This document shows positions 25,910-56,331 of a DNA stretch of 64,000 nt, in pieces; positions within the stretch are counted from its first letter, which is position 1; each line of letters begins with the position of its first letter. The notes under the pieces are model-generated. The model saw nothing but the letters and a program-made list of their open reading frames with translations, was not told the DNA's origin and did not search any database. The DNA lies in the NCBI GenBank assembly GCA_029339195.1, contig JAPTJF010000022.1, positions 186,001-250,000 on the forward strand. The letters run 5' to 3'. The position numbers and the translations under genes were made by a program. Source of the DNA: Micractinium sp. NFX-FRZ (Eukaryota > Chlorophyta > Trebouxiophyceae > Chlorellales > Chlorellaceae).

Positions 25910-25942
<33 letters not shown>

Positions 25943-32414: not shown

Positions 32415-35400
32415 ATGGCACCGCAGCGGCGCGTGGCGCTGCTGCTACTGGCAGTGCTGGCCGCTTGCAGCGCAGGCCAAGCAGCGGCGCAGAGCTACCT
32501 CAAGCTCTCCGACTTGCCGACCACCCCATCCAGCAACGCAGTTGGAGAGGTGATCAGCAAGTAAGTGGAGGATGCTGCACAAGCCCGCTGTGCCTCCAGG
32601 ACGGGGCCTGGATGCACTGCCTGCCACTGTGGTGCATCTACCAGCCGCACCCTCTTTGCATGCTGAGTGGATGCCAAATGGAGACACTCACACGCCATAT
32701 GCTCCTTTGCTGACCGCCCGTGCGCCTGCCTCCACCGCTGCCCTGCCCTGCCCTCTGTCCATCACCCCACCCCCGCAGGTTCCCCTCCACCCCCGCCTTC
32801 CACCTGGCAGACATCAACCCGCTGCTGGGCGCCACTCCCGGCGCCCTGGACGGCACACCCAATTGCACCGCCGACCCCGCCCGCAAGCTGTACAGCGTGT
32901 GCGCCGACCATGTGTCGCTGTTCAGCGGGCTGACGGTGTACAGCTCTGGTGCGGGCGAGGTGACCTTCTTGGGCGCCACCGACCGCGGGCCCAACCAGGT
33001 AGGTGCCAGCGGCCCTTGGGCATTCGAGGCAGCGCTGAGATCAGTTGCTGGCGCACGCTCAGCCGAAGGTGCTCTCGCCCCAAGACAGGTTCTGTGCTTT
33101 CACATGCCCTGCTCCTCTTCCCGCCATGCTCCCCTCCCTCTCTCCCTCCCTCCCTCCCGCAGGGGTGCAAGGACATCAAGGATGATGGCGGCCCCGTGGT
33201 GGCGGGCGGCAACTGCAAAGCCTCCAACACCACCGACTGCAACGACTGGGGGCGCGCCTACTACGGCCTGGATGAGTTCCGCGGCCAGAAGATGAACCAG
33301 ACCAGCACCTCCAACAACGGCCAGGGCTTCCCCGCGCCCCACTTTTCACCCGGCCTCATGGCGCTGCGACTGGACACTGCCAGCGGCATGCTGTCGGTTG
33401 GCCAGCACTGCTCGCTGTGGTACCTGGGGGCCGGCGGGGAGCGGGTGCCCGCCACGGGGCTGCCCAACTGGCAGGCGGGGCCCTATGTGCCGGGACAGGG
33501 CGACAACGTGCCATGTGAGTGTTCACGGGTCGCTGGGGCGTGCGTGTGTGTGTGCTGTAGGAATGCGCGGTGGCCACCTGAAAATGCATGCTGCTGGGCG
33601 GACGGGTGTGCAGGCACATGCTGGGCACTCTTGCCTGGCATGCAGCTTGCTGAACCCAGCTGCCCGCTCACATATTGTTTGAATTGGATGACACACACGT
33701 CGTGCGGGGCGGCATGTGATGTCGTGCAGACGGCGGCATGTGCACCAACCCCGTGGCCGCCGACTTCCCCGTGGCGGCGCCCTTCTACAACCCCGCCGGC
33801 ATCGATGTGGAGGTGGGGGATGAGCACAGGAAGCTGGGGTGTTGAATGTGCAGGGGTTGACTGCAGGTCAACCCCAGGTAGGGCAGGCAGCCAGAGCTGG
33901 CTGCAGTGGCAGCAAGGGCATGCCTTCCTCTTCCGCTTCACACCGTCCTCCCTGCCTGCCCCTCACCTGCCGCAGGACATCCAAGTCATCCCGGGCACCT
34001 CCAACCCACGCCTGTGCCTGCTGTCTGACGAGTACAGCCCCTCTGTGGCCGTCGTCAACTGCGATGTCGACCACGCCAGCTGCGGAGAGGTGGCCACCAT
34101 GGGGGGTGCTGCTTTATGTCGTTTGCTACAGCCGCCGCTGCTGCCACTGCTGCTGCTGCTGCTGCTGCTTAAGGCTGCTGCTTAAGCTGCTGCTTAAGGA
34201 ATTCCGTTGTTGTTGCCGCTGCTGCTGCTGCTGCTGTTGCCACTGCTGCTGCTGCTGCTGCGTATACCTTGCCTGCTGCGTATACCTCGCCTGCTGCACT
34301 CTTCCCCTTGACCAACTCCACTGCGTCCGCCTGCCCCTCTGTTTCCTCATCCCGCCACTCCCTTGCCGCAGATCAAGGTGCGCTACGTGCCGCAGTCCCT
34401 GGGCGCCGCCTCCTTCTTCGGCGGATTCACCGGCTATCCAGTCAGGGCTGTGCTGCCCAACTCCTTCCTGATGCGGCGCGTCAACAAGGGCCTGGAGAAC
34501 GCGGCTGTGTCGCCCGACGGCAAGAGCGCGTGGACCATGATGCAGTCTGGCATGGGAGACGACAGCGGCTCCTCACCCTACAAGGCCTCCTTCACACTCA
34601 CCGCCGCCAAGCTAGACTTTTCCGACCCGATGGACGCCAAGCTGGCGGGGGTGTACCTCTACGTCGGTGCGAGGGCGTGGGGAGGGTGGTGGGCGAGATG
34701 GAGCAGGTGGGGCTGATCAGGTGGAAAGCTCGTTTTGTGAGGCAGGCGGTGGCATGCCAACACTTGAGATGATTGAAACATACAATCACGAGCAAGCCGG
34801 CAGCCAAGGGGTGCGCATGCAACTGTGCCTGTTTGCATAGCTTGTAACATGCGATTGATGCCCCGGAGGCTCGCTGAGCGTGGCGGGGCAACCCTGCATG
34901 CCGCCCATCTGCTCCGCCCCTGCCCCCTCCCCGCCTACAGCCGACCACCCCGCCTCGTGGGGGCAGAACCCCTCCGCCAAGAGCATCTACTCCTCCTCCT
35001 TTGCCTGGGCTTCCCAGCACGTCACCTCCGCCTCCCTGCCTGCCGACTACCCTCTGCTGCTGGTCGGCGAGCGCGCCAAGGACCAGGTGGGCGGGTGGGA
35101 TGCAACAAGGGAGGGCCGGGTGCCTCCCCGCCTTCTCGGCTGGATCTGCTTCCCCCGCTCAGCCATCTTCCGTGCAACTGCACCGCCGGGCTGTCCGCTC
35201 CTTGGTGCTCCACCCCCCTGCGCCATCTCTGCTTCCGCTCCTGCTCGACACCTCCCCCGGGCCTTTTCCTCTCCCCTGCACACCCTCCCTTTCTTTCCAC
35301 ACCCGTTCAACAGGTCAAGGTCTACTTGGCAGACTTCAGCCAGGCCACCGATGTGACCGGGCTGTACCCCAACACCACCGGCACTCCCGACCTCCTCTAC

Positions 35401-38400
35401 TTCGACTCCACCACATTCAGTGAGCAGGGAGCTGGCTGGCAGGCTGGCCGGGGTGTGGGTGGGTGGGTGGGGTGGGTGGGTGGGGGGGCTGACGGTGGCA
35501 TGTGGGCACTTTGCTGGCACTGACGGCCGCACCTGTACATGACGTCAGGTCCCACCCAACCCAACCTCTGCTGCAGCCAACTCCACCACCACCACCGCCG
35601 GCGTGGTGGCTGCCCTGAATGCCCGGGGCATCAAGCCCGCACGCAAGATCAGGGCCTTTGACACCGGCGTGCTGGCGGGTGCCACCGCCGCCCCCCTCAT
35701 CCCCGGCTGGGTGGGGGCCACCGCCAAGCAGGAGGGCCTGGCTGCGCTGGGCGACTGCGTGGTTGCAATTGGTGACGACAATGACTTTGGGCTGGGGGGC
35801 AACCCACAGAGCCAGCTCAACATCGTGCGCCTGCCCACCTGCATCACCCAGCTCTACCAGGTGGGTGGGGGTGTGTGTGAGGGGTGCGGTGGGGCTGGGG
35901 GGCTGGGGGGAGATCACCCCCCATGATGCGTGGGGGGCGCAGGAGCCGTGTTAAGCGGGATGTGTATTGTGCGTGTGCCGGTGGGAGCATAACCGCCAGG
36001 CTGACTGACGTGGCTGGCATGCTGCTGCCTGCAGACGATGAGCCCGCCCGCCCCGGCCACCCTGGGTGTGCGAATCCTTCATGTCAACGACATCCACGCC
36101 AGGTGGGGGGGCATGCTTGACGCTGCAATGGCCGGCTGTTTGGCCGTCTAGCTTGCAACAGGCTCGCCGCGGCAGTCGCTTATGTTTGGCCTCCGCGCTG
36201 ATGTCCCGTGCCTCCTCCCCTCCCTGCCCCCATCGTCACAACAGGATCGAGCCCGCCGACTCCAGCTACAACCCTGTGACTGCAGCCCAGTACGGCACCG
36301 CCTATGGCGGCCTGGCACGGCTGGCTGGTTACGTTGCTGCGGCCCGCACCGAGGCTGCGGCTGCCGGCCAGGACATCCTGGTGCTGCACGCGGGTGAGGC
36401 CCTGGGAGCAGTGGGGCTGTTGGTGCTTGACAGGGACCGGCCTTGGTTGAAACCTGCTTGCGCCGCCACCACAACCGCATGAATTGACCCTTCACCTTCT
36501 GCCCGCCCCGCCTGCTCCTCCCCGCCCACCCACCCACCCGCCCGATCAGGCGACCAGTACACGGGCACCAGCTGGGATTCGTACTACACGCGGCAGGGCA
36601 ACTTCAGCGTGGCCGGCCTGCTCAACATGATCAACTTTGATGCCATGGCCGCCGGAAACCACGAGGTGCGTGGGGCCCAGGGGAAGGGTTGGCCCCGGAG
36701 TCGGTCGCCTGCTCCAGTGGCAGTGCCACATGCCTTCCGTGGGTGCCCGCTCGTCTCCTCACCCTCCCTGTTCCTGACCCGCTCTCCACCCCCTGCGCCT
36801 TCACCCCGTGTGTTCAGTTCGACTACGGCCCAGCCAACCTTGCCGGCTTCGCCAGCACCCTCGCCGCGCCCATCCTCAGCTGCAACGTGGATGTGAGCAA
36901 ATCAGAGCTGGCCGGAAAGGTGGCGCCCTTCACCATCAAGACGCTGCCCGTCAGCGGCAAGAAGGTTGCCATCATCGGCCTGTCCCCTCCCGACACCCAG
37001 ATCACCAGCTCGCCAGGCAAGGCAGAGGGCTGCATGCCGACTGGGAGCATGCGGGGTGGCATCGAATGGGGTGGGGAGGCTGCGTAGCTAGTGGTAGCGT
37101 AAGCTTGCTGGGATGGGATTGAGATGGGAGCAGTGGCAGGGCGGGATGAGCAGGCAGGGGGGGTGGGGCGCACCATGCTCCCCATTTAAGGCCTTACGAA
37201 AGCTCCGCCCCTTGCCCCATCCCACCCTACTGCAGGCCCCAACGTCACCATCCTGAACATCGAGGCCTCCCTGCCCGGATGCATTGCGGACGCCAAGGCG
37301 CAGGGCGCCGACATGATTGTTCTGCTGGCGCATGTGAGAGGGGCGCGGGCTGCCTGCCGTGGGGTGATAGCACTCGCCTTTGGCTGGCCGCGGCGCTCAT
37401 GCATGCTAGCGCTGTGGCGCTCTCAGCTTGGCCTACCCTGCCCGCTCATGCGTGCTTCATTGCCAGATGCTTCTCCAGTGTTGCCCGCTGCCTGACCGGC
37501 ATCGCGCCTTCCCCTCCACACGCCGCCCCGCAGATTGGATACGACCGCGATCTACAGGTGGCTGGCAGCGCCGCCTTCCAGGAAGTGGACATTATCATCG
37601 GAGGCCACTCCCACTCCTTTTTGTACGGCGCCCCCGCCCCCGGCGGCCAGCCCCAGCTGCCCGGCAGCCCCAACCCCAACCTCACCAGCAGCGCGCGTGA
37701 GGGGGCGGTGGCCTCCGGCCCCTACCCCACCAACGTGCTCAACGGCAACAAGACCATCCCCATTGCCACCGCACTGTGGGGCTCCAGGTCGGTCAGCAAC
37801 GGCCAAGCAGGATGAGGGCACTTTCTTCCTCCCTCCCTCGCCACCCTCAAGCTGCCCTCCCTCACACCCTCCCCGCTCGCCCGCCTCCTCACTAACCCTT
37901 CCCCCCGCCCCCCGCCTGCCTGTTTATGCAACTCGTGCAGGTATGTGGGCAGCCTGGCCACCGAGTGGGACCAGTCGGGCGCCCTGCTCAACTACTCCGG
38001 CTCCCCCGTGCTGCTGGGAGGCAGCGGGTCGGTGAACCCGGTGACAGAGGACGCAGCAGTGGCGGCACGCGTGGCGGAGCTGCGGGTGCCCCTGGAGGCG
38101 CTGGCCGCCCAGGTTGTGGGTGAGTGAGGGCCGCTCTGCCTCTCCTCTTCTGCCCCTGCGCCCGCCTTGGCTGCCTGCCCACCCTCTTCTGGCCACCAGT
38201 CAACAGGCTGGCCAGCACATCCACCCGCCGCGATTGGTGGACAGTGCAGCGAGCCTGGCAAGCGGCTGCAGACACCATAGGTGCCTCTGCAGACACCATA
38301 GGTGCCTGCCATTCTCCGGCCCCGCCCCACCTCAGATCTTGTGCACCCCCTTATGCACTAACCCGCCTGCGGCCCCACCTGTGCAGGCCAGCTGGCCACC

Positions 38401-41400
38401 CCGCTGGTGGGCCACGCCGACCGCACCATCGGCCGCAACCAGGAGACCAACACCGGCAACCTGGTGTGCCAGGCACTCAAGTTTGCAGCCACCACAGGCG
38501 TGGTGAGCGGGGCGGGGTGGGGGTGCACCATGAGCGGGTGGCGGTGGTCTGGCTCTGAGGGTGGGTGGCGCTCCCTCGGACGATGGTGATCATTGTGAGG
38601 AGGGTGTTAGGGTTTAGGGTTGGGGGTCACCCCTGCAACAAAGGGTGGTGCTCAGTCTGAGTGCCCATCACTGACGCTGGCGCCACCTGCCCTCTCCCCT
38701 GCTGCCTCCCCCCCCCCCCAGCCCGCCGCCGCCGCCGTGCTGGCCGCCAACCCGGGCCTGCCCGTGGTGTGCCTGGAGAATGCGGGCGGCCTGCGCGCCG
38801 ACATCCCCGCCGGCAACGTCACCATGGCGCAGATCAACAGCGTGCTGCCCTTTGGAAACACGTGCGTGGGGGCGGGGCCGCTGCCTGGGGGTGTGGGGGA
38901 ATTGCCTGGCAGTGCAACCGCAGCGTGCAGGCAGGCAGGCAGGGATGTCTGGCAGGCAGGGATGTCTGGGTTTGGCAGCCCAAAGCCGGCGCTTCTTGCA
39001 ATGTGTGCCATGCGTGGCTGCCCTCTCACACATGGCACCCCCGCCGCCCCGCCCCCCTGCAGCTTTGTGCTCATGCGCATCTCCCCCGCCACCCTCATCT
39101 CCACCCTCAACAACGCGCTCTCCGGCTGGACCGGCGACAGCACCGCCGCCGGCCGCTTCTCCCAGGTGCGCCGGCCAGCGCTCTTTACACATGCCCCACA
39201 GTGTTGGAGGCATGTTGTCTGAGGCACTACGCCGCTCTGCCGATGCAGCATGCATGCATCCCACCGCCCCTCCCATCTCATCCTTCCTCCCCACCACTCG
39301 CGGCCCCGCGCAGATCGGCGGCATGCGCCTGGCCTTTGACCCCCGCCTGCCCGACAAGTTTGGCCGGCTGGTGGGTGCCACCCTCACCGACGCGCCCGGC
39401 ACGCCCTCGCTGCTCACCTACACCGGCGACCTGATGCTGCTGACAACCAACTACATTGCCGCAGGAGGCGACAAGTGAGTGCGGGGGTGCGCCGGGAGAC
39501 GAGGGGGCACAGTGCAGCTGCCATGGCCTGCGCTGCCCTGTCGGCAGGTGCTGCTGGCTAAGCTGGGGGTTTTTGTATGTCCACTCTGACACCCGGTCCC
39601 GCTCACTAATTCTCTCGCTGACCCTCCCTATACGTCCGCCCCACGCCCCCCCTCTTCCCCCCCGCACCGCCCACCCGGCAGCTTCACCGCCCTGGCGGCC
39701 GTCAAGCCCCTGCTGGACACCAGCGTGGGTGACGCCCAGGTGCTGGCCGACTACATTGCCGCCAACTCACCCGTCTCCGCCGCCAAGGACGGACGCATCG
39801 CCAACTGCGCCGCCACCCCCAACGAGCTGTGCCCTTCGTTCCTGAAGCTCTCCGACCTGCCCACCACAGCCTCCAGCAACGCCGCGGGCGAGGTGGTCGG
39901 CAAGTGAGTGGGATGGGTCTGCTGCTGGCGTGGCTGGCAGTGTACTAGTGTGATGTCCGTGCGAGCCTAACGATTGTCTTTTGGCCCCAACTCCCGGGGG
40001 GCCCACCTCGCACATATCTTTAATTGGCCTTGATGCTCCACCCACACCCCAGTGGCAACTCTTGCCTTGCACGCACCCGCCTCCCAAGCACGCCCCACTC
40101 CCCGGCCCCCTGCGGCAGGTTCCCCTCCACCGCCGCCTTCACCCTGTCCCAGCTCAACCCCGCGCTGGCCTCCACGCCCGGCGCGCTGGACGGCGCCGCC
40201 AGCTGCGTCGCCGACCCCACGGGCCGCCGCAAGTACAGCGTGTGCGCCGACCACGTGTCCCTGTTCAGCGGGCTGACGCTGTACAGCTCCAGCGCCGCCA
40301 ATGGGCTGACCTTCCTGGGCACCACAGACCGCGGCCCCAACCAGGTAAGCTGTCTGGTGGCTGTAAGCGAGGTGCCAGCTCACAAACAGGATCCCGCCGC
40401 GCTCCCTCACCCCGCCCCACTCCCACGGGCGGCCCTCTGCATTGCTAGGCTAAATACATCATGCATCTCTGCTCCTGTTTTCTTGCCCGCCACCCAAGCA
40501 GGGGTGCAAGGACATCAAGGACGAGGTGGGGCCCGCCGCCGCCGGCGCCACCTGCTCCTCCACCAACGCCACCGGCTGCAACGACTGGGGCAACGCGTAT
40601 TACGGCGTGGACACCTACAAGGGCCTGAAGATGAACCAGACCAGCGCCTCAAACCTGGGCCAGGTGGGTGGGATGGGGGCGGTGTGGGCGTGGGTGGGCG
40701 AGTGAAGGAGCAGGTGCGTGTGTTTGTGTGACTGTGCTTGTGTGTGACTGACAGTGCTTGTGTGCATTGCAAGCGGGTGGATGGGGGGAGGGACGCCGGG
40801 CTGCACCACGCCTGCATGCCGCCCCGCCTGCCATGTGTGCAATACGACAGCCCCTACTGTGCGCTTGACGCCCCACCAACAACCGCCGCCTGCCACCCAC
40901 CCCACCCCACCCCACCCTCAGGGCTTCCCCGTGCCCCGCTTCTCCCCCGGCTTCATGGCACTGCGCCTGGACACCACCAGCGGCACGCTGTCGGTGGGCA
41001 AGCACTGCTCGCTGTGGTACCCAGGGGCCGGCGCGGAGCGGGTGCCCGCCACGGGCCTGCCCAACTGGCAGGCGGGGCCCTACCTGCCCAGCCAGGGCGA
41101 CAACGTGCCGTGTGAGTGTTCGAGAGGGGAGGGCTGGGCAGGGGGTGAGGTGGGGTTGGGAGGGCCGCTTGGCTTGCTGCTCGGGTGGCAAGTGGCCACA
41201 CACCAGTGCCTGTGGGGGGTGAGGCAGGGTGTTAGCCCAAGACTTAAATGCACGCCGTCGCCGCGCGCACTGTTCTGCTTTCTGCTGGCAGTCTCTTAGT
41301 ATGCCACGATCGCGCCCTGGGCATTGTGCAAGCCATGAGCACAGCAGTGTGCCAGCTGACTGTGCCCTGCTGCCCCCCCAATTGTCTTCTGCAGACGGCG

Positions 41401-44400
41401 CGATGTGCACCAACCCTCAGGCCGCCGACTTCCCGGTGGGAGACCCCTTCTACAACCCCGCCGGCATCGACGTGGAGGTGAGGCTGCCGGCTGCTGGCTG
41501 CTGGGCGGGGCCGATTAGGGAGCTCCCCACCAGGGCAGGACGGGTAAACGCAGCGCGCCTGCTGTGTGGCAACCACGCACGGCAGGCCCCCACTCCCTGC
41601 CTCTTCTGGCGGCGCCCCCACGCATGCTGGCCCCTCTCCCGCCCCACCCCTGCCCGCAGGACATCCAAGTCATCCCGGGCACCTCCAACCCACGCCTGTG
41701 CCTGCTGTCTGACGAGTACAGCCCCTCTGTGGCCGTCGTCAACTGCGATGTCGACCACGCCAGCTGCGGAGAGGTGCGCTGGAGGCCGGGGGTGGGGAGG
41801 TTGACAGGGTAGACTCGGTTCACAAAGCAATGGGGAGGTGAACGGACATACACAGTTCACAAAGAGATGGGAGGCCAGGCCTTGTTTTGTCTGCGGCCAG
41901 CCGCAGTGCGGTGCGACCTGCCCATCACCTTCAAACAAACAGTGCCATCACCAGCAGTGTCTGCCTCGCTGCGCCTCGTTCCACCATGCCGCTCCGGCGT
42001 TTTGGCTGACATCGACCATCACACCTGCCCCTGCGCCTGCCCCTGTGCCTGCCCGCCCCTCCCCCGCCCCCCTGCTGCAGATCAAGGTTCGCTACGTGCC
42101 GCAGTCCCTGGGCGCCTTCTTTGCCGGCTCCAGCTTCACTGGCTCTGGCTACCCCGTCAAGGCTGTGCTGCCCAACGCCTTCCTAAAGCGGCGCAACAAC
42201 AAGGGGCTGGAGAACGCGGCTGTGTCGCCCGACGGCAAGAGCGCGTGGACCATGATGCAGTCTGCCATGGGCGACGACGGCGGCTCCTCCCCACACAAGG
42301 CCTCCTTCACCCTCACCGCTGCCAAGCTGGACTTCTCTGACCCGATGGACGCCAAGCTGGCGGGGGTGTACCTTTACGTCGGTGCGTCGCTGGCTGGGGA
42401 GGGTGGTGGGCGAGGTCGAGTGGATGGGTTTGATCAGGCGCAGAGCTACCCAGTTGTTTTGCGAGGCAGGCAGCAGCGAGGCCACCGCACAAGTCGAGGA
42501 AGCAGGGCAGATAGACACGGACAGATAGACATGCAAGTGGCGGCCAGGCAGTGCACATGCAACTGTGGTTGTCATGCACATTGCGTGCAATGGGTGCCAG
42601 GCCTACTTGCTCAGCAAGCTCAGACATGCATGCATGCCGCTCATCTGCTCCGCCCCTGTCCCCTCCCGCCCACCCCGCAGCCGACCACCCCGCCTCGTGG
42701 GGCCAGAACCCCTCGGCCAAGAGCATCTACGCCTCCTCCTTCTCATGGGCCTCCGAGCACGTGGCCGGCGCCAACCTGTCTGCCACCTACCCGCTGCTGC
42801 TGGTGGGCGAGCGCGCCAAGGACCAGGTGGGTGGGCGGGCAGGGGGTTGGGTGGGGCAGGGTGCCTGCTCATCTCCTGGCTGCCTCTGCTGCACGCTCAT
42901 CACGGACTGATGCTCTGCCGCATACGCAGCAGCTGATTTCTCTTGGGCACAGCGGCTGCTCCCCACAGCAGGCCTCATCAGCAGGCGGGCTCTCCCCTCC
43001 GACCCATGCCCCGGTGCTGACAAGGCGGGAGGCAGGATGCCAGCCTCCCAAACCCTGCCTGTCCCCCACTCCCAACGCAAACCCACCCCAGTCACCCCAC
43101 CTTCCGCTCTGCATCCTCTCCACTTGCACGCTTGGCAGGTCAAAGCGCTCAGCTGACACCCCCTGCCCACACCCCTCAACCTCTCCCCATGCACCCTCCC
43201 CCTCCCCTCCCTGCCAACAGGTCAAGGTCTACCTGGCGGACTTCAGCCAGGCCACCGACGTGAGCGGGCTGTACCCCAACACCACCGGCACTCCTGACCT
43301 CCTGTACTTCGACTCCACCGCATTCAGTGAGTGTGCCTGCTGCTTGCCATGGCCGCGCTTGGTCCCTGGCGGACAATGGCTGCCGCCTGTCTGCCCGCCG
43401 TGTTTCCCTCTCTCCTTCCTTCCTTCCTGCTATGCTTGTGAGGCTGCACAGACTCGCGGCTGGTGATGGTCTCAATCCACTGGAAGCAAACAGTGGCGTG
43501 CGCGCAACTGACGCGATGCCGCCGTGCTGCTGCCCGCCATGCCTTCAACGCCAACCCGCCTCCCCTGCCCCACCCACGCCTCCTCCGCGCCGCCTCCTAC
43601 AGCCAACTCCAGCACCACCACCGCCGGCGTGGTGGCCGCCCTGAGCGCCCAGGGCATCAAGCCCGCCCGCAAGATCAGGGCCTTTGACACTGGCGTGCTT
43701 GCGGGTGCCACCGCCGCCCCCCTCATCCCCGGCTGGGTGGGGGCCACCGCCAAGCAGGAGGGTCTGGCCGTGCTGGGCGACTGCGTGGTGGCGATTGGTG
43801 AGCAGCCGTGCCGGTCAAGACACGTGCCTGCTGGCCTGCTGCCATCGGATGGCTGGCCCAACACGTCTGGCTGGCCCCCTCCGAAGCCATATCGACCACC
43901 TGCTCTTGACAGCTGGCGGCGTGGCCTCGGCGTGACGTTCACTCGCCATTGCGCATCCAACTGTTGCCACCGTGCTCTTCTGCCTTGCGCCCACAGGCGA
44001 CGACGACGACTTTGGGCTGGGGGGCAACCCGCAGAGCCAGCTGAACATCGTGCGCCTGCCCACCTGCATCACCCAGCTCTACCAGGTGGGTGCGTGTGTG
44101 TGGGCGGCGGTGGGTGGCATGGCGTGTGACGGGCTGGCCCTCTTCCCCTCTTCCCAGCGTGCCTGATGGTGCATGCTTGAATGTGCATGTCTGGCGCATG
44201 GCTGGTGCACCCACCCAGTGGCAGCCACCCGACAGCCGCTGCCTCCCTCTCCCCCCTGTGCAGACCCTGAACACGGATGCCCTGACCCTCAACGCCACCC
44301 AGCTCACCGGCAATGGCGAGCGGGTGACTGTGAGCTGGGACCTGCAGCTGAGCGGCGCCCACCCCAGTGACACCGTGGCACTCTACCTGGCCCCCGTCTC

Positions 44401-47400
44401 TTCCTCCTTTGCCTCCTCCTATGCCATCAAGTACAAGCTGGCGGGCGCCACCAGCGGCAGCGCCAGGTCAGCTGGACAATCTCCAAGTGCTGTGCTGCGC
44501 TGTGCAGTAGTTTGACTGTCAATCTTGCCAGCGTGCTGGCAGCAGCCAGCTTGCAAGCTTGCATGCACGCTGCTTGTGCCCCTGACCCGTCACACCCTCG
44601 TGCAATGCATCACTTGCCTGCTCGCCTTACCCACCCGCCCGGTCCTCCCCTCCCTCGCCCCTTCCCCTCGCCCGCCCGCAGCTTCCGCCTGCTCAACGTG
44701 CGGCAGGACTACCAGTTTGCGCTGGTCACCAACCGCACCGGCACCCCCACCGTGCTGGCCACCTCGCCCGTGCTCACCAACGCCGCACCCAACGAGCCGA
44801 CGCAGCTGCACCTGACGCCCGGCACGGCCGCGTCCGAGTGAGGGGGTAGTTAGTGCAAGGGCCTCTTTCGTTGCACACCCAAGGGAGGCACGTATGCTGC
44901 CTCTGAGAAAGTTGAAGACACATGAAAGAACAGCGGCTGGTGTTAGCTGACCTTGCTTGCAAGAGCGAGGCCGTGTGTGGCCGCCAGCACTTTTCTTTCT
45001 CTCAGCATGAACCTGCCAGCCAACTGAGCCTCCGAATCTTGCTGGCATGCCTGCAGGATGACGGTGCAGTGGGTGACCAAGAACGCAGCACAGCCGACCG
45101 TGGTGTGGGGTGAGTGCCCGGGTGCCCTTGGATGCAGTGACATCACCAGGGCAGGGCTGGCTGGCTTCTGCACTGTTGCCGGTGCTGCTGCCTGCACAAT
45201 GCCGCTAGCTGGTTGGTGCATCCAGTGTTGTATGCTTACACATTGCCGCTGCCACTGCTGGCCCAGCTGTCGACAATATCCACCCACCGCACCGGTGTGG
45301 CTGCAGGCTTGGCCCCCGGCAGCCTGGCCAGCAGCGCTGCTGCCGACTCGCGCACTTATTCGAAGCAGGACATCAAGGACGGCTGCGGGTGGGGCAATGC
45401 AACCCTGCCTGCCAACGCCAACCTTGTGTCGGGTGCGCTGGCCGCCAGCGTGGGGGAGGGAGGTGGGGTGGTGAGGGCGCCATGTGGGGCTTGGGGACGC
45501 CATGTGGGTGGTGAGGATGCCATGCGGGGCTTGGGGACGCCATGTGGGTGGTGAGGGCGCCATGTGGGTGGTGAGGATGCCATGTGGGTGGAGAGGGCAA
45601 CATGTGCGTGGTGAGGATGCCCAGCGGACTTCTCTCTACAGCTTGCTCGGCGCAGTGCTTGTGCCTCTTCACACGGGCATGTGCTCATCACATGTGTTCC
45701 TCACAATGCCTGACTGACTGCTCACCGATGCTGCAGTCGGCAAGGGCTGGCTGGCACCTGGCACGCTGCACCTTGCCAGGATGACGGGCCTGCAGCCCTC
45801 CACCACATACTACTACCAAGTGACGGACCAGGTGGGTGGGTGCAAGTGGGCGCGTGCATGGGCAGTGAGGTGCACCCCAGGCAGGGCCACTCTAGCTTCG
45901 GTAGGCAAGCAGTCCGCGGGAGCTGCAGCGTGCCGCCTGGAGCTGCAGCCGGTGCTAGGCTCATAAACCCTACCTTTGCCAGCCCCACCAGCCCCACCAG
46001 CCCCCACAACTCATGCGCATGGGGAGGCACCCTCTCACCGGCCGCTGGTGCATTTGTCGCCCCGCCCTGCAGGCCAGCGGCGCCGCTAGCCCCGTGCATT
46101 CCTTCACCACCGCCCCCGCCGCCGGCGACGACGCCACCCTCACCATGCTGCTGGCTGCCGACACCGGCACGGGAGAGAACAACGACAACGCGTTGCGCCC
46201 CACCGCTCACAAGACCGTGGGGGCCTACGCCGTCTTCAAGGTGGGGCGGTCCATCACTGCCTGCTGGCTGGAAATGCCACCCAGCCCGCCGCTCAGCCGG
46301 TAGCAGCACAGCTGGCCAAGCGCTGGTTATGAGCGCTCTATGCTAGCATACACCTGCCAGGTAGCTTCCCTGGGTGACCGACCCAGCCTCCCCCGGTCCT
46401 CCTCACCCCCACCGCCTGCCCCTCCCGTTGAACTCCCAGGCCATGAACGCCGCCGCCGCCGCCAGCCCCACCCCCGTCATGTCCTTTATCAACGGAGACA
46501 TCAGCTACGCAGGTGGGCAGGGCAGGGCAGGGCAGGGCAGGGCAGGTTCCAGCTGCTGCCGACGTTCGCATGTTGGGGCGGCGCCTGTGTGGCACTCTGC
46601 CTGGCAGTGTGGCAGCACCCCGCCCCGCTTGCAGTTGGTTCTCACTCCCCCCGCCCCCGCCCCTGCACCTGCCCCCGCTCCCCCCTGCAAGCAGATGGCG
46701 TGCTGTACGACTGGCAGCAGATGATGGACCACGCCGCACCCATGATGGCCTCCGTACCCATCCTCACCACCCCGGGCAACCACGAGGCACCTGGGCCTGC
46801 TTGCTTTGGCTTGGGTTTGGCGGGCAAGGCGGAGCGCAGTGCACCGCGCGGTCCGGGTGCATGAGTGGCGGCGATGTCTTGGCAACTGTGCCCTCCCTGC
46901 ATCGCTTTTTGTTGTACCCGCACGTGTATACGTGGTGCTGGTTGCAAGCCACGCGTGCATTGCGCCGCGCCACCTCAGCTTGCTGCCTCAAAGCTCAGAC
47001 ACAGCTAACAACTGCCAGCTTGCTAACCGCGCTCCCGCCCTTGCTCACTTCCCTGCAGCGCGACTATTACTACTCCTCTGGCGGCGTGGTGGTCGACTCG
47101 GGCGACGCCATCAAGGACAGCGGCACACCAAAGTGCGTGTGCCGACAGTCTCTGTGCTGCGGCTCGCTGCTTGTCGGGGTAACGCTGCCTTGGTGCTCTT
47201 GGGCCCGAGCCCCGTCCAGTCACCCCTCGGTGCCTTGACGCATCACCCCTTGGTTGCTGCCGCAGGTATGGCGGCGAGTGCGGCATTCCCTACGAGGCGC
47301 TGTTTGTCAACCCCAACACCACGCGGGCACAGCAGTGGCACAGCATTGACGTCGGACCCGTCCACTTCCTGCAGCTGTCCAGCGGTGAGCGAGGCTGGGG

Positions 47401-50400
47401 ATGGGCGGTGCAACGCCTGCACCAGTGCCCTGCAGCCTGGGCCTTTAACGAGGCGGGGACGTGGTGGTGGTGTGCGGCGGTACAACGGAATGCTCTAGCC
47501 GCTGCTCGCAAAAGGGCCCTCTTGAGGCCACGTGTGACCCCTCATCTCCCCGCTGTGCCCCGCCTGCAGAGCTGGACATGCGCCGCGGCTCCCCCCAGCA
47601 GCAGTTTGCCATCGCTGACCTGGCGGCTGTCAACCGCACCAAGACGCCCTTTGTCGTCGTCTCCTGGCACCGTCTCATGTACTCTGCCGCCGCCGACACC
47701 GATTCGGGTGAGCTCCGCACAGCGGGTAGGGGGCCATGCGGAGTGCCCTGCTGCTCCCCAGCCAGGAGCTCGCGCCCTCGCTCCTTGCTCCTTGCTCCCT
47801 TGCCTGCCACTCTCAGGCTGACGGACAGGCTGGCGGCACACGTGGCCTGAGGCTGGGCTGCCCTGCACCTGGCCCACCCTCGCCCCCGACCAACCCTGCC
47901 CTGCCTGGCACGACCCGCCCCTCGCTGCCCCCCCTTGCAGACTACATCTGGGGCGACGTGTTCATGATGCAGCAGGGGTGGGACGACGTGCTGTACTACG
48001 GCGGCGTGGATGCCGTGTTCAACGGCCACTTCCACGTGTACCACAGGTGCCGCGCTGCGTGCTGTGCTTGATTTGTGCTGTGCTGTGCTGCGTGCTGTGC
48101 TGTGCCATGGAGTGCATTGCGTGTGCTGCACTGGTTCCTGCAGGGCTGGCCGTCAAGTATTGGTTGCTCGCCCTGCCACCTGGCAGGCCTGCCGTCTTGA
48201 GTTCAAATACGCCGAGCCCAGCCGCACTGCGCCCCCACAACTCACCCCACTCACCCCACCCGCGCCCCACCCGACTGCGCAGGACCTGCCCCGTGTACAA
48301 CCGTGCTTGCGTGCCCGACCGTGCCGACGGCGTGCGGGGCGCCCCCGTGCACATCAACACCGGCTGGGGCGGCCCCTCCTCTGCCGACAAGCTGCCCCTC
48401 AACGCCAACGGCCAGTCGGTGCACCCGTACATCGAGGTGACCAGCGGCGCCACCCAGCGCTTTGGGTTTGTCAAGATGACGGTCAACCGCACCCACATGG
48501 TGCTGGACTCCATCCCAGTGGATTGGAACTACAACACAAGTGAGGGGGCGGGGGGCGGGGGCCAGGCAGGAGCTGCCGAGTGGTGGGCTGGGCAGGTGCC
48601 AGCCAAGACATTTGGGGTGGGTCTGGGTCTGGTTGTGTGCCGGTGGTCGGGCACAGCGCCTGCCCACACTTTCTGTCTGCCACCTGGCGTGCCCTGCCGC
48701 GCCTGCTTGTTCGCAGCGCAGCCGCCGCCCTGCCACTCCCTGCCCCACCCGTGCCCCCTGCCCTGTGCCCCGGCAGCCTCCAAGACGTACTACGGCAGCA
48801 TGGCTGCGCTTGCGCCGCTCGACTCCATCACCCTCAAGGCCGGCCGGGCAGCCCGCTCCAGCGTCAAGCTGGCCATTGTGCACGTCAATGACATTCATGC
48901 CAGGTAGAGGTGCCGGCACCTGGGTGCCAGCAAGGTGCATTCTGTACTGAGGCGGAGACTAATGCCATGCCCGCACGGGCGGCCCACAAAAAGGCTTCCA
49001 CGCAACTCGCTCCTTGACCCACCCCGCCGCCTGCCTCCCTGCCTCTCTCTCTCGCCCCCTGCCCCCCCTGCAGGATCGAGCCTGCCGACTCCAGCTTCAA
49101 CCCGGTGCCCGCGGCCAAGTACGGCACCGCCTATGGCGGCCTGGCACGCCTGGCTGGCTTCATCGCCGCCGCACGCTCCCAGGCGGCGGCCGCCGACCAG
49201 GACATTCTGGTGCTGCACGCGGGTGAGGCCCTGGGAGCAGTGGGGTTGCTGCAAAACGGCAACAGCGACCGGCCTTGCTCTGCAATCTGCTTGCGCCACC
49301 GGCTCCAGACTGCACCCACACCCGCATGCATTGCTTGCTCCTTCACCTCCTGCTGTGCCCATCTGCACCTCCCTCCCCGCCCGCCCACCCGAGCAGGCGA
49401 CCAGTACACGGGCACCAGCTGGGATTCGTACTACACGCGGCAGGGCAACTTCAGCGTGGCAGGACTGCTCAACATGATCGGCTTTGATGCCATGGCCGCC
49501 GGAAACCACGAGGTGCGGGCGAGAGGGTTGGCTGTGGTGGAACAGAGCAACCGGCGGCACTCGCTCGCCTTTTTTTTTTGTGGCAGTGGACCGTTGGTGC
49601 CCGCTCGTCTCCTCGCCCTCCCGGCTCTCAAGGCGCTCTGCAACCTCCGCTTCCACCCCTGGCCCGCAGTTTGACTACGGCCCAGGCAACCTTGCCGGCT
49701 TTGCCAGCACCCTGACTGCGCCCGTCCTCAGCTGCAACGTGGATGTGAGCAAATCCGAGCTGGCAGGCAAGGTGGCGCCCTTCATCGTCAAGACGCTGCC
49801 GCGCAGCGGCAAGAAGGTTGCCATCATCGGGCTGTCACCGCCCGACACCGCCGTCACCAGCTCGCCAGGCAAGGCTGGGGTCTGCATGCATATGCTGGTG
49901 GCAGTGCAGGATGAGCAGGCAGGGTGGGTGGGGCAGGGTGGGGCGCCCCATGCCCCCCGTCCAAGGCGCGACGGAAGCTCTGCCCCTTGCCCCATCCCCA
50001 CCGTACTGCAGGCCCCAACGTCACCATCCTGAGCATCGAGGCCTCCCTGCCCGGATGCATTGCGGACGCCAAGGCGCAGGGCGCCGACATGATCGTACTC
50101 CTGGCGCATGTGAGAGGGGCACGGGCTGCCTGCCGTGTGGTGTGGTGTGAACTTGCTGGCGGCAAGGGTGCCTTGCCTGGTGCTGTGCGCGCTCACTGAG
50201 CCATGCGTGCCGCCCCCCTGCACTGGTGCCGTTTGACAGTTTCCTCGCTGGGCGACCTGCCGCTCCCTCCCGCAACCCTGCCCCGCAGATTGGGTACGAC
50301 CGTGACCTGTCTGTGGCTGGCAGCGCCGCCTTCCAGGAAGTGGACATCATCATCGGAGGCCACTCCCACTCCCTTTTGTACGGCGCCCCCGCCCCCGGCG

Positions 50401-53400
50401 GCCAGCCCCAGCTGCCCGGCAGCCCCAACCCCAACCTCACCAGCAGCGCGCGTGAGGGGGCGGTGGCATCCGGCCCCTACCCCACCAACGTGCTCAACGG
50501 CAACAAGACCATCCCCACTGCCACCGCACTGTGGGGCTCCAGGTCTGTGGGGGGGGGGGGCGGCCGTGGAGCATTGCCAACTCCCCCCTCCCTCCGTGCC
50601 TCCCTTGCTGCCTCGAGCTGCCCTCCCTCCCACCCTCCCCGCTTGCCCGCCTCCTCACTTACCCTCCCCCCGCCGCCTGCCCTCCCCCTTGCTGTCATGC
50701 GCTGCAGGTATGTGGGCAGCCTGGCCACCGAGTGGGACCTGGCCGGCTCCCTCCTCACCTACTCCGGCGCCCCCGTGCTGCTGGGAGGCAGCGGGTCGGT
50801 GAACCCGGTGGCTGAGGACGCCTCAGTGGAGGCACGCGTGGCGGAGCTGCGGGTGCCCCTGGAGGCGCTGGCCGCCCAGGTCGTGGGTGAGTTGAGCCTC
50901 CTCTTGTCTTTTACAGCCTGACCACACGCCTGCCTGGCTATCCAAGTAAGCTGCAGTTTTTAGCCCGCCCTCCTACTAGCGCGCCCGCCCAACCGAACCA
51001 CCTGTGCGCCTGCCCTGCTCGGATGCCTTCCTGCCCGCCCGCCTGCCTGTCCCCCAACCCGCCACAACGGGCAATGCCCGGCCTCCACCACCACCGTGGC
51101 ATGCAGGCGAGCTGGCCACCCCTCTGGCTGGCCACGCCGACCGCACCATTGGCCGCAACCAGGAGACCAACACCGGCAACCTTATCTGTGCGGCGCTCAA
51201 GTATGCAGCTCAAAACACCGTGGTGAGTGGCGTTCATGTCTAGGGGTGTGTCTGTGTGTCTCTGCGGCCTGTGCAGGAGCACGTCCATCGTTTCAAGTTT
51301 GCATTTCAAAGAAAGCTTACCTTGCCACCCAGTCCAACAATCCCTGCTTGCTTGCCAGACGTGCACCCTTGACCTCCCTGCACACCTGGTGTGCCACCCG
51401 GCCGCCCTGCTGACCTGACCCAGGCACCGCCCCTGCTCTGACACACACTCTGTGACACCGGGGCCACCTGCGCTCTGCCCTGCTGTGCGATGCAGCCTGC
51501 CGCCGCCGCCGTGCTGGCCGCCAACCCAGGACTGCCCGTGGTGTGCCTGGAGAATGCGGGCGGCATCCGCTCCGACATCCCCGCCGGCAACGTCACCATG
51601 GCGCAGATCAACAGCGTGCTGCCCTTTGGAAACACGTGCGTGGGACAACGGTTGTGGGAGACAGCTCATGCTACTGCAAGCAGCAATGCTCAAGGCATTC
51701 GGTCGGCAGCAAGCGGAGCGCGCTGTCCATGCTCGAGCGCTGCTGCTTGAACGCCCAGCATGCATGCGGTTGACCACCTGCTCATGCGCACCCGCCCACC
51801 CCCCGTGCAGCTTTGTGCTCATGCGCGTCTCCCCCGCCACCATGCTCTCCTCCCTCAACAACGGCCTGTCTGGCTGGACTGGCGACAGCACCGCGGCGGG
51901 CCGCTTCCCTCAGGTGCGCGGGAGGGCCTGGCTGGGAGGGCAGGGGCAGAGACCGTCTCGCAGGGGCGGGGGAAATTTTGACACTGGGCGTTGTGTGGGG
52001 AGCGCCATTCACCGCACAATCGGCACGGCCGGGTGGAGTGTGCAAGGGGCGGTTCAGCATGTCAGCGGCCAGCACCGCCTCATTTGAACCTCCGTTGGCC
52101 GTGTTGCCTCGCAGATTGGCGGCATGCGCCTGGCCTTTGACCCCCGCCTGCCCGACAAGTTTGGCCGGCTGGTGGACGCCACCCTCACCGATGCCCCCGG
52201 CACGCCGTCGCTGCTCACCTACACCGGCGACCTGCTGCTGCTCACCACCAACTTTGTGGCCGCGGGCGGGGACAAGTGAGCGGGCGGGGGGTGTGCCAGG
52301 AGACGAGGGGGCACTGTGCAGCTGCCGTGCCCTGCGCTGGCCTGTTGTCGGATGGCTGGGGGGCAAGCTGGGGGGTCTGTGGCATGGAACCCCCATCCAT
52401 GACATGAGGCCCCACCCCGCTCACCAATCCTTTCAACACCCGCCCTTTGCAACTGCACCCCCCACCGCCCCCCCGGCAGCTTCACCGCCCTGGCGGCCGT
52501 CAAGCCGCTGCTGGACACCAGCGTGGGTGATGCCCAGGTGATGGCCGACTACATTGCCGCCAACTCACCCGTCTCCGCCGCCAAGGACGGACGCATCGCC
52601 AACTGCGCCGCCACGCCCAACGAGCTGTGCCCTGTGATCGAGTCGCCGCCCCCGCCTCCAGCACCGTCTCCCCCCTCCCCTCCGCCGCCCAGCCCCCAGC
52701 CTCCCAACCCGTCCCCTCCGCCGCCCAGCCCTCAGCCTCCCAGCCCCTCACCTCCTCCCCCCAGCCCCAAGCCTCCCAGCCCCTCACCTCCTCCCCCCAG
52801 CCCCAAGCCTCCCAGCCCCTCACCTCCGCCTCCCAGCCCCAAGCCTCCCAGCCCCAAGCCTCCGCCTCCCAGCCCCAAGCCTCCCAGCCCCCGCCCGCCC
52901 TCTCCGCCGCCCCCCAAGAAGTCACCTCCTCCCCCCAAGCCCTCTCCCCGCCCGCCGCCCACTCCTGTGGCCTTCACCGTCGTCAACGTGAAGACAGCCA
53001 CGGCCTCCGCATCTTCAGTTGGCAGCCGCATTGTTGCACGCAGGACGGTGCGCTACCCGGCCGCTCAAGCCATCGACAGCAAGGCCTCCACTTTCTTCAT
53101 GAGCGCGGCTCAGGCAAGCGAGGAGAGGAGGGGAGGGTGGAAAAGAGTTGGGTGGCGCCAGCCTGCAGTGAGCCTCAACAAGAGGGTACCACCCGCGGAT
53201 GCAAGCGGCGCCTGCGACCTCCCCCGCACATAACAACAAGGGGTGGGTGGCCTACAGGCCAGCTCAGCGCTCCACACCTGCCAGCTCAGTGCACCATCCC
53301 CTGCTTCTGTCCCCTCACCTCACAGGCGTCCCCCTGGCTCAGCATCGACCTGGGCAGGCGGTACGAGGTGCAGCGGGTGGTCATCACTGCAGCTGCCGCC

Positions 53401-54161
53401 AACCTGGGCGCCCCCACCTACACCTCCGCCCACACCTTCACTGTGCGAGTGGGGGATGTCAAGAACGCCCCCAGCACCGCCAAGCCAGACACCGGGCTGG
53501 ACCGCAGGTGGGGCCACGGGCGGCGCAGCACAGCAGGGAGGCAGCTCGGTGAAGGGCAGGGCATGCGTTGTGGGTGCCGTGTGTGCTGCGCTGCGCTGCG
53601 CTGCACACTGCTGCCGTGGCTGCAGTCTCAGCTGCCCCTCACTCTCCCAATCCCTCCCCCCCCCGCCCGGGCTGCCATGCCTGCTGCTGCAGCGCTGGCG
53701 CGCTGTGCTCCACCGCCGCCGGACCCCTGAGGCCGTCCACCAGCGTGACCTGCGGGCGCACGGCTGGCGGCCGCTTCACCGCCACCCCCAAGGCGGGGCG
53801 CTACGTGTCGGTTGAGCTCAAGTCCAGCGTGGCGCGGGCCTTTAGCCAGCTGGCGGTGGCAGAGGTGGCCATCTACGCCCGAGGTGCGTGCAGGGAGGGG
53901 GGGCAGCCGTGGGCACGCATCAGCAGCAGTGTTTGTGCAGTGCAGGTGGGGCGTGCGGACGGTTTGAGGAGGTGGTGAGGAGCCTGTGCAGCGCTGTGTT
54001 GGCTTCCACAACACCACGCCCTGCGAGACGGAACCTTTTCCTGCTTCCCGGCTGTGCCCGGCACAGTGGCGGGGGCCCAGCCACTCCTTGCTGCCTCTGC
54101 CTCTGCCCCTGACCCCCCGCCCCCTACCCCCTTGCACCCCGATGCTGCAGCCTTGAAGTAA
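32415..54161 (+). CDS. Giant secreted multidomain phosphohydrolase (phytase-like/5'-nucleotidase/phytase-like/PAP/5'-nucleotidase/Pro-rich/F5-8C)
   Basis: One gene of about 59 exons encodes a predicted 3,160-residue extracellular protein. The first exon (32415-32560) gives a signal peptide MAPQRRVALLLLAVLAACSA; an ATG at 32343 is in frame but would bury it. Exon phases agree along the whole length and no stop separates the two halves. Near 39835-39903 the first half runs straight into SFLKLSDLPTTASSNAAGE, a copy of the mature N-terminus SYLKLSDLPTTPSSNAVGE. The order of domains is phytase-like (49-582), 5'-nucleotidase (583-1160), phytase-like (1161-1721), purple acid phosphatase with Fn3-like part (1722-2295), 5'-nucleotidase (2300-2872), Pro-rich linker (2873-2985) and F5/8C (2985-3157). 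Each is described separately. The likely role is release of phosphate from phytate, nucleotides and other esters at the cell surface; that is inference from families. GC-AG donors occur at 37017, 46787, 49869 and 53114. Confidence 0.85.
32779..35860 (+). other. Domain: phytase-like (esterase-like activity of phytase) copy A
   Basis: Exons 32779-32998, 33163-33514, 33730-33812, 33976-34089, 34372-34666, 34941-35086, 35314-35419 and 35577-35860. Family marks of the Phytase-like fold (PF13449 type) are SLFSGLTVYSS, GATDRGPNQ, NPAGIDVEDI, LCLLSDEYSPSVAVV, VYLADFSQATDV, RKIRAFDTG and the late DDNDFGLG, matching the family's DRGP, DPEG, DEYGP, DLSGATD and DNDFG pattern. This beta-propeller-like family was named from bacterial phytase/esterase studies. 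Activity on phytate here is not proven. Confidence 0.75.
34130..34295. repeat. (CTG)n and CGTATACC repeats in intron
   Basis: CTG runs, three TTAAG-linked CTGCTG blocks and two copies of TGCGTATACC(T/C)GCCTGC lie in the intron after exon 33976-34089. Confidence 0.8.
36035..39834 (+). other. Domain: 5'-nucleotidase (UshA-type) copy A
   Basis: Exons 36035-36102, 36245-36393, 36550-36665, 36818-37016, 37236-37333, 37534-37787, 37941-38119, 38387-38502, 38722-38861, 39063-39165, 39314-39474 and 39682-39903. All metallophosphoesterase ligands are visible: HVNDIHAR (DxH), LHAGDQYTGT (GD), AGNHEFDYG (GNHE), LLAHIGYD (H) and IGGHSHSFLYG (GHxH). The C-terminal nucleotide-binding half has NQETNTGNLVCQAL, LENAGGLRADIPAGN and VLPFGNTF. 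The domain should hydrolyse nucleoside monophosphates or related esters. The intron at 37017 begins GC. Confidence 0.87.
39838..44085 (+). other. Domain: phytase-like copy B
   Basis: It starts in exon 39682-39903 with the repeated leader SFLKLSDLPTTASS and continues in 40119-40344, 40502-40663, 40922-41111, 41395-41477, 41660-41773, 42081-42381, 42681-42826, 43221-43326, 43603-43797 and 43997-44085. It carries the same signature strings as copy A. It has two introns that copy A lacks: 40664-40921, splitting GQ|GFPVP, and 43798-43996, splitting VAIG|DDDDFG. Its exon 41660-41773 is identical to 33976-34089 of copy A at every base I compared. Confidence 0.75.
44264..48776 (+). other. Domain: purple acid phosphatase module (Fn3-like N-part plus metallophosphatase)
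   Basis: Exons 44264-44466, 44682-44837, 45057-45109, 45307-45432, 45737-45831, 46073-46240, 46440-46512, 46695-46786, 47059-47132, 47266-47384, 47570-47707, 47941-48046 and 48283-48539. The N-part has the PAP beta-sandwich look (NEPTQLHLTPG, MTVQWVTKN, PSTTYYYQVTD). The catalytic part shows the five PAP motif blocks: LLAADTG, NGDISYADG, PGNHE, VVVSWHRLMYS and NGHFHVYHR. The usual GHxHxYER reads GHFHVYHR. The intron after GNHE has a weak GC donor (GAG|GCACCT at 46787). This module is absent from the first half. Confidence 0.83.
45475..45622. repeat. Minisatellite of ~20-bp GTGAGG..GCCATGTGG units in intron
   Basis: Seven or so imperfect units of (G)GTGAGGxxGCCATGTGGG, some reading CTTGGGGACGCC, follow the exon ending at 45432. 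Each unit carries a GTGAGG donor-like string. Confidence 0.85.
48777..52633 (+). other. Domain: 5'-nucleotidase copy B
   Basis: Exons 48777-48903, 49074-49222, 49397-49512, 49670-49868, 50012-50109, 50289-50542, 50708-50886, 51107-51222, 51496-51635, 51811-51913, 52115-52275 and the start of 52480-53113. All ligand motifs are kept (HVNDIHAR, GDQYTGT, GNHEFDYG, LLAHIGYD, GGHSHSLLYG, LENAGGIRSDIPAGN). Every internal exon has the same length and phase as in copy A, and several introns still align at their ends, for example the GTGAGGCCCTGGGAGCAGTG start. The GC donor is also shared (49869). It is a recent duplicate of copy A. Confidence 0.87.
52634..52970 (+). other. Pro-rich SPPPP/PSPKPPSP linker
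   Basis: About 112 residues of SPPPPSPQPPNPSP- and SPPPPSPKPPSP-type repeats encoded within exon 52480-53113. These match the hydroxyproline-rich linkers of volvocine and trebouxiophyte cell-wall glycoproteins and are expected to be hydroxylated and glycosylated into an extended rod. The DNA is a pyrimidine-rich tandem repeat. Confidence 0.9.
52971..54161 (+). other. Domain: C-terminal F5/8C (discoidin/fucolectin-like)
   Basis: Exons (end of) 52480-53113, 53326-53507, 53693-53883 and 54151-54161. Features are KTATASASS, AAQAIDSKAST, SPWLSIDLGRRYEVQRVVI, FTVRVGDV, a pair of Cys in LCSTAAG and VTCGR, AGRYVSVEL and LAVAEVAIYAR. That is the F5/8C fold pattern with fucolectin-like Cys spacing. 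It probably binds wall or extracellular glycans. The last exon is only 11 bases and encodes the final few residues and stop. The intron at 53114 begins GC (CAG|GCAAGC). Confidence 0.75.

Positions 54162-56299: not shown

Positions 56300-56331
<32 letters not shown>

Follow-up and report, generated by a model that had tools for sequence, protein, structure and literature searches.

The stretch analyzed here, hereafter the window, comprises 64,000 nt of the green alga Micractinium sp. NFX-FRZ (contig JAPTJF010000022.1; G000:C22:186001-250000), from a genome assembly of 66 Mb in 838 contigs. Its forward strand carries, at 32415–54161, what is probably a single gene for a single secreted multidomain phosphoesterase of ~327 kDa that would win phosphate from nucleotides. 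Genomic sequence is the evidence base throughout. A curated gene model, built from splice strength, the duplicate copy within the gene and paralogs, has 59 exons, a coding sequence of 9,483 nt, 3,160 amino acids (aa) and a single terminal stop; the predicted protein has a mass of 326.8 kDa and 30 N-glycosylation sequons. An earlier sequence-only reading of this DNA had likewise joined 59 exons in one frame, and our model equals it in exon number, coordinates and length. The features of the gene are listed below, with PhyL denoting the Phytase-like modules, 5NT the 5'-nucleotidases and PAP the purple acid phosphatase.

32415–32492, + strand: start codon and signal-peptide-like segment, aa 1–26 (curated model; hydrophobic windows at aa 6–8)
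32493–35860, + strand: PhyL-1, Phytase-like (PF13449), aa 27–582, exons 1–9 (Pfam; 84% identical to PhyL-2)
36035–39835, + strand: 5NT-1, Metallophos and 5_nucleotid_C, aa 583–1161, exons 10–21 (Pfam, motifs)
39682–39903, + strand: junction exon 21, from the 5NT-1 C-terminus to the PhyL-2 N-terminus (...NELCP/SFLKLSDLP...), one open exon
39836–44085, + strand: PhyL-2, second Phytase-like, aa 1162–1721, exons 21–31 (Pfam, best stretch 1392–1697)
44264–48850, + strand: PAP, fn3-like part and purple acid phosphatase, probably of PPD1 type, aa 1722–2299, exons 32–45 (Pfam, PDB 3zk4, motifs)
48851–52627, + strand: 5NT-2, second 5'-nucleotidase, aa 2300–2871, exons 45–56 (Pfam, PDB; 90% identical to 5NT-1)
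52634–52966, + strand: proline-rich linker, aa 2874–2984 (open frame; 36-nt tandem repeat)
52967–53883, + strand: F5/8C-like domain (NedA-like galactose-binding), exons 56–58 (PF22633; matches span the exon 56/57 boundary)
54151–54161, + strand: last exon and stop TAA (curated model; the generic gene finder favoured 54238–54296)

A Pfam search of the joined protein finds the proposed domain order: Phytase-like, 5'-nucleotidase, Phytase-like, PAP, 5'-nucleotidase and F5/8C-like. Above the cut-offs are Phytase-like (twice), Metallophos (three times), 5_nucleotid_C (twice), Pur_ac_phosph_N and F5_F8_type_C_2, together with the overlapping matches PGA_cap and NadN_nucleosid_C; fn3_PAP, Metallophos_C, F5_F8_type_C, PhoD_N, CbiD and LlgE fall below them. 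The five phosphoester-cleaving domains of the sequence-only reading are thus all found, but they are of three kinds only, two of them duplicated, and the distinct activities are fewer than "five" implies. The start of the protein is predicted to be signal-peptide-like, as had been suggested. Elsewhere, 19-residue hydropathy of the whole protein exceeds 1.6 only in windows 975 and 2687, both inside 5NT domains, so no C-terminal anchor is seen. The F5/8C tail is borne out by PF22633 (E 5e-7; 30.7 bits vs a cut-off of 27.8), with PF00754 at 26.9 bits, under its cut-off of 28.2. The linker before it comprises 111 aa, 65% of them proline, in an open frame with eight SPPPP motifs; the proposed SPPPP linker is probably, not certainly, present in the protein, as the generic finder removes 306 nt of it (52634–52939) as an intron. 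This in-frame, stop-free, proline-rich stretch is also a possible optional linker.

The gene finder was purpose-written and used generic GC-rich parameters. Given only 31001–54800 as input, it called one gene of 59 exons at 32415–54296, with 3104 codons including the stop. With GC donors permitted it called 60 exons in 31001–54800, and a run over the whole window returned the same + strand gene. The real sequence scored 553, against 0 for the reverse complement and 0 for block-shuffled sequence in three of three trials. The GC-donor call reproduces 55 of the 59 curated exons exactly; the discordant four are exons 35 and 48 (longer in the finder), exon 56 (cut in two by the finder) and the last exon. 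Third codon positions of the curated model have a GC content of 0.88 vs 0.66 for the introns. All 58 introns end in AG, and their donors are GT in 54 cases and GC in four. The GC-donor introns are 13, 39, 48 and 56; introns 13 and 48 form a duplicate pair, and intron 39 is weak. Each of five rounds of self-training again placed a single gene across the junction; in four rounds this gene comprised 62 exons, some having been added upstream. It drifted, however, its final-round model retaining introns, and was not used for details.

The model is softest at the linker, whose coding status is probable, at the final exon of 11 nt and at intron 39. This intron, within the PAP module, has the weak GC donor GAG/GCACCT, which the finder also picked once GC donors were permitted. 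Left unspliced, intron 39 breaks the conserved GNHERD motif, and we accepted it as a GC-AG intron because a PAP elsewhere in the genome, on C53, has GNHERD contiguous. Within intron 35 lies a minisatellite of 20-nt units (45466–45621).

The gene appears to have been assembled from modules of three kinds, PhyL, 5NT and PPD1-type PAP, the PhyL+5NT pair having been duplicated in tandem. The two copies are 84% (PhyL) and 90% (5NT) identical, and all 20 introns of unit 1 are matched in unit 2 at the same codon and phase. Unit 2 has two extra introns, 23 (40664–40921) and 30 (43798–43996), gained or lost since the duplication (synonymous divergence, dS, ~0.27). For PhyL and 5NT copies, respectively, dS is 0.27 and 0.21, and dN/dS, the ratio of nonsynonymous to synonymous divergence, is 0.34 and 0.28. 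Both copies are thus constrained, and we therefore argue that both halves are in use. The divergence is patchy: exons 5 (33976–34089) and 26 (41660–41773) are identical over 114 nt while other pairs range from 83 to 97%, and in the 5NT segment aa 828–887 dS is 0.02, which suggests gene conversion between the copies. Alignment of the introns between copies gave mixed results: for several of the 16 pairs the reversed control came close to the true score or exceeded it, and we did not rely on this comparison. Allelic misassembly is unlikely, as the copies differ at dS 0.21–0.27 and PAP follows only one of them.

Metal-ligand motifs are present in all three metallophosphoesterase domains, in agreement with the sequence-only reading. 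Both 5NT copies show the pattern of 5'-nucleotidases of the CD73/UshA type, DxH, GD, GNHE, H, GHxH, as NDIH (600 in 5NT-1/2312 in 5NT-2), AGDQY (654/2366), GNHE (690/2402), LLAH (789/2501) and GGHSH (815/2527). The C-terminal substrate-binding domain PF02872 occurs twice, and GRNQETN, NAGG(I/L)R, LPFGNTF and GGDNF, which we take to be the substrate-contact motifs, are present. Both domains are full length relative to ecto-5'-nucleotidases; with 5NT-2 as query for the PDB search and alignment, CD73 matched at E 7e-72 and 2z1a at ~5e-56. Unlike the algal domains, CD73 and 2z1a are single-unit enzymes. The genome holds a further 5NT paralog on C420 (~50.3–54.9 kb), which is 46% identical, has a glycosylphosphatidylinositol (GPI)-like hydrophobic tail and shares four intron sites of equal phase; its start coordinate is uncertain, the finder having fused it to an unrelated upstream gene. 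Additional 5NT matches lie on C37 and C60 (exon-wise search).

Purple acid phosphatases carry seven metal ligands spread over five motifs, found here as LAADTG (1959), NGDISY (2006), GNHE (2040), VVVSWH (2136) and GHFH (2182) and all kept in the alignment with 3zk4. That structure, diphosphonucleotide phosphatase 1, is the best PDB match (E 1e-48; runner-up 2e-22), in an alignment starting at residue 40 of the 565-residue query. Pur_ac_phosph_N is over its cut-off, and fn3_PAP reaches 29.1 bits against a cut-off of 33. By closest PDB match the module is thus probably of the PPD1 type, a diphosphonucleotide phosphatase/phosphodiesterase. The sequence-only reading had assigned it a general ester substrate; this is better given as diphosphonucleotide/phosphodiester, the PAP being PPD1-like. 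PPD1 is reported to act on pyrophosphate bonds of diphosphonucleotides, on phosphodiesters and on DNA (PMC4062093), and a soybean PAP of the PPD clade is described as wall-located, induced by phosphorus starvation and an aid to growth on deoxynucleoside triphosphates (dNTP) (PMC5853315). Plant PPD1-type PAPs (lupin PPD1, GmPAP1-like) share the fn3-like N-terminal part, the PAP fold and the ligand motifs; they are free-standing, in contrast to the algal PAP, which sits between PhyL and 5NT. The C53 PAP (166737–171800) is PPD1-like as well and has an extra C-terminal segment, and additional PAP matches lie on C140 and C279 (exon-wise search).

The PhyL modules are matched by PF13449 in two stretches (78.8 bits vs a cut-off of 27.6). 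Across 32 sequences, the invariant acidic residues of PhyL-2 are D93, D241, E243, E262, E325, E518, D533 and D535, and PhyL-1 carries the same acidic motifs; such residues would suit metal binding. The joined protein has no Pfam match to the beta-propeller phytase families, PDB searches with PhyL, also in the form of a family profile, gave no relative, and the accession PF13449 appears in no paper of the open-licence PMC literature searched. An exon-wise search, which is weak, found no further PhyL copy in the genome. Outside relatives are bacterial proteins ~22–36% identical, one EukProt protein (P0005) and one Logan protein (P0004), and bacterial and eukaryotic PF13449 proteins have invariant D/E residues in common with the algal modules. 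Among 120 records with a match, four plasmid loci were examined and PhyL lies near phosphate or nucleotide genes in two: Thermus thermophilus HB8, with surE and an ExeM/NucH nuclease nearby, and strain SNM7-6 (Thermus), with Ppx/GppA, a histidine phosphatase and CHAD. Unlike in the alga, 5NT and PAP matches were absent from all 74 bacterial PhyL loci, both within the same open reading frame (ORF) and among flanking ORFs of at least 120 codons (flanks up to 4 kb), in a survey that left PhyL itself unrecovered in five of the 74. Three long bacterial PhyL ORFs (L070, L076 and L103) are instead fused, by Pfam, to choice-of-anchor I. A secreted protein of the diatom Phaeodactylum that is "phytase-like" by name is reported to be phosphate-regulated (PMC7283521). 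The idea that the cyanobacterial atypical PhoA might belong to PF13449 was unsupported, the S. elongatus control genome giving no PF13449 match.

Downstream of the giant gene, 1.6 kb away and convergent with it (tail to tail), lies a predicted transcription factor; two further predicted neighbours are listed with it.

55733–58001, − strand: MYB-CC factor of the PHR1/PSR1 kind, 296 aa, 6 predicted exons (Pfam, PDB)
8884–12293, − strand: transglutaminase-like protein
25564–30293, − strand: WD40 protein

The MYB-CC neighbour has a MYB domain and an LHEQLE coiled coil, both Pfam domains being over their cut-offs, and in the PDB it matches PHR2 and PHR1 best. In Chlamydomonas, the MYB factor PSR1 is described as the main control of phosphate-deficiency responses (PMC10281605). 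The genome also has a close MYB-domain relative on C497 and a MYB-CC motif on C294, the latter from a search that failed to pick up the copy in the window; MYB-CC genes are few in the genome, not unique.

Phosphate is often limiting for algae, and organic phosphorus esters need extracellular cleavage before use. On our reading, the signal peptide would direct secretion of the protein, which its SPPPP rod and F5/8C domain would anchor within the wall or at the wall surface. When phosphate is limiting, the PAP module would cut diphosphonucleotides and phosphodiesters, leaving nucleoside monophosphates from which the two 5NT modules would free inorganic phosphate (Pi); a PPD1-type PAP joined to 5NT would thus make a simple nucleotide-to-phosphate route. 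The PhyL modules may attack another class of phosphoesters or aid substrate binding, the least certain step. With several enzymes tethered at the surface, the freed Pi would stay close to the cell's transporters. Substrates may also be handed from module to module, as the sequence-only reading had proposed.

Is the locus one gene? The sequence-only reading had noted no stop or new start between the halves, and the junction indeed lies in the single open exon 21, which has no ATG in any frame and whose donor is the counterpart of the exon 1 donor (same codon and phase). Three of the five module joints fall inside single curated exons: exon 21 (5NT-1/PhyL-2), exon 45 (PAP/5NT-2) and exon 56 (5NT-2/linker/F5/8C). 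The remaining joints, PhyL/5NT and PhyL/PAP, span introns 9 and 31, which are both of phase 0 and occupy the identical position after ITQLYQ in the two copies. It is highly improbable that two or three neighbouring genes with transcripts of their own (PhyL-5NT, then PhyL-PAP-5NT-linker-F5/8C) were wrongly joined here. Such genes would find a stop, since the frame reaches TGA at 39905–39907 from the second base of intron 21, and forcing the finder to split costs little: the score drops from 553 to 520 near 39.9 kb and to 530 near 44.9 kb, of which 23 units are gene-start and gene-stop penalties set by us, leaving a net cost of ~10 and of near zero. A first gene ending at that TGA, however, would close with 23 purposeless residues of the PhyL N-terminus, and exon 1 uses the same AAG/TRA donor. 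Where the frame reads on without splicing into exon 22, its sole ATG would give MLHPHPSGNSCLARTRLPS, which is not signal-peptide-like. For a split at 44.9 kb homology decides: it would sever the PAP N-domain, which Pfam and 3zk4 match across exons 33/34; the joints inside exons 45 and 56 likewise speak against separate genes. TGTAA, the poly(A) signal usual in green algae, occurs on the sense strand of 31,000–55,700 within intron 6, within intron 22 and at 54531; the intron 22 copy (40362) lies 455 nt beyond the would-be first-gene stop, and that at 54531 lies a similar 370 nt beyond the real stop, so the signal favours neither reading. One gene could also encode a polyprotein, translated as one chain and then cut into separate secreted enzymes. 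The large size and repeated units would fit this and the sequence forbids nothing, but we saw no clear sign of processing, in an analysis that included no dedicated cleavage-site search, and consider it unlikely.

The function also admits other readings. The sequence-only reading had named phytate as a substrate, and the Pfam name "Esterase-like activity of phytase", together with the product name given in bacterial plasmids, would suit a machine whose PhyL modules dephosphorylate inositol phosphates. That claim was not supported: it rests on a family name, which is not a proven activity, and the searches gave neither a beta-propeller phytase match nor a PDB relative. PPD-type PAPs, moreover, are placed in another clade than the PAP phytases (PMC5853315), and we regard a phytate-degrading machine as very unlikely. 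Unlikely, too, is that the protein serves extracellular nucleotide metabolism for signalling, through control of extracellular ATP and ADP, or nucleoside salvage, in place of phosphate supply. The likeness of 5NT to CD73, with substrate-contact motifs that are apparently retained, would agree with such a role, as would the reported action of PPD1 on diphosphonucleotides (PMC4062093); the phosphate genes beside PhyL kin in two of four loci and the PHR1/PSR1-like neighbour point instead to phosphate.

Several observations weigh against a phosphate scavenger made as one protein. Transcript unity, the protein and its activities are predictions from DNA, and the forced splits cost little beyond the set penalties. 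Splicing of the PAP depends on the weak GC donor of intron 39, and most of the SPPPP linker, part of the basis for wall tethering, is taken by the finder for an intron. PhyL chemistry is unproven and would be the weak point of the mechanism; the other two of the four plasmid PhyL loci show no phosphate genes; and the pH optima of PAP and 5NT may differ. The MYB-CC adjacency was noticed afterwards and there is no P1BS site (GNATATNC) from the upstream neighbour to the gene start, so the adjacency is suggestive only; window-wide there are four P1BS sites vs 2.7 expected by chance. Most doubtful are expression as one protein, the splicing of intron 39 and the linker, PhyL chemistry and the benefit of proximity. 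Overall, the observation made in the sequence-only reading is confirmed and its interpretation is supported in part. With these points taken into account, a secreted protein that associates with the wall and scavenges phosphate from nucleotides and nucleic acids remains the best reading and is probably correct. A more specific form, in which a wall-tethered assembly line on one chain leads from PPD1 to 5NT under phosphate-starvation control while PhyL adds an ester class, is a tentative possibility.

The component domains are known, and the architecture appears to be new as far as we could see. That it was undescribed had been suggested, and it turned up in neither the protein nor the literature searches, both of them limited. 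A full-length query (words from residues 1–2870) against a 5.8-billion-protein set that has EukProt among its sources gave no match among 2718 scored candidates. A PhyL+5NT unit query gave three matches among 8000 scored, all to 5NT and none with PF13449 by annotation, and PhyL alone gave five among 7999. These runs scored only candidates sharing most words and had no positive control; the absence of the architecture is weak evidence because of this word prefilter, in which Ala/Pro-rich words may crowd out relatives. Among viral contigs, 86 stretches fit the pattern and none was a relative. The literature searches, in open-licence PMC only and partly made with other aims, found no description of the architecture.

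Known systems resemble parts of it. YfkN and YhcR of Bacillus subtilis are likewise surface-displayed single chains of nucleotide phosphoesterases, and the PDB search with the 5NT part also retrieves a YfkN structure (E 5e-13). They differ in their bacterial sortase anchoring and their size of ~140 kDa and, to our knowledge, are without PhyL, PAP or a proline-rich rod. Volvox is said, by the title of a 1999 paper by Hallmann, to have a modular, Ca-dependent, inducible extracellular phosphatase. That enzyme is listed as a putative PhoX, unlike the protein described here; PhoX, considered as an alternative, was not found in this genome by exon-wise search. Psip1 proteins are alike in combining a phytase-like domain with another phosphatase, a fusion reported from some cyanobacteria, and in repeating phosphatase domains, as in a green-algal ORF; Psip1 is, in contrast, a separate phosphatase family, and the passages on it mention neither 5NT nor PAP (PMC11098088).

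If it exists as proposed, the assembly line would surpass in size any phosphate-scavenging enzyme chain that we know of, and eukaryotes would have in it a counterpart of Bacillus YfkN/YhcR. With phosphodiester/pyrophosphate and nucleotidase modules naturally fused on a wall rod, the role of enzyme proximity in extracellular phosphorus capture would become directly testable, and the fusion would provide a scaffold for recovering phosphorus. Its two PhyL modules may also open a route to the actual function of the widespread "Phytase-like" family. For the alga itself, the gene suggests how phosphate could be stripped from nucleotides at the cell's own surface.

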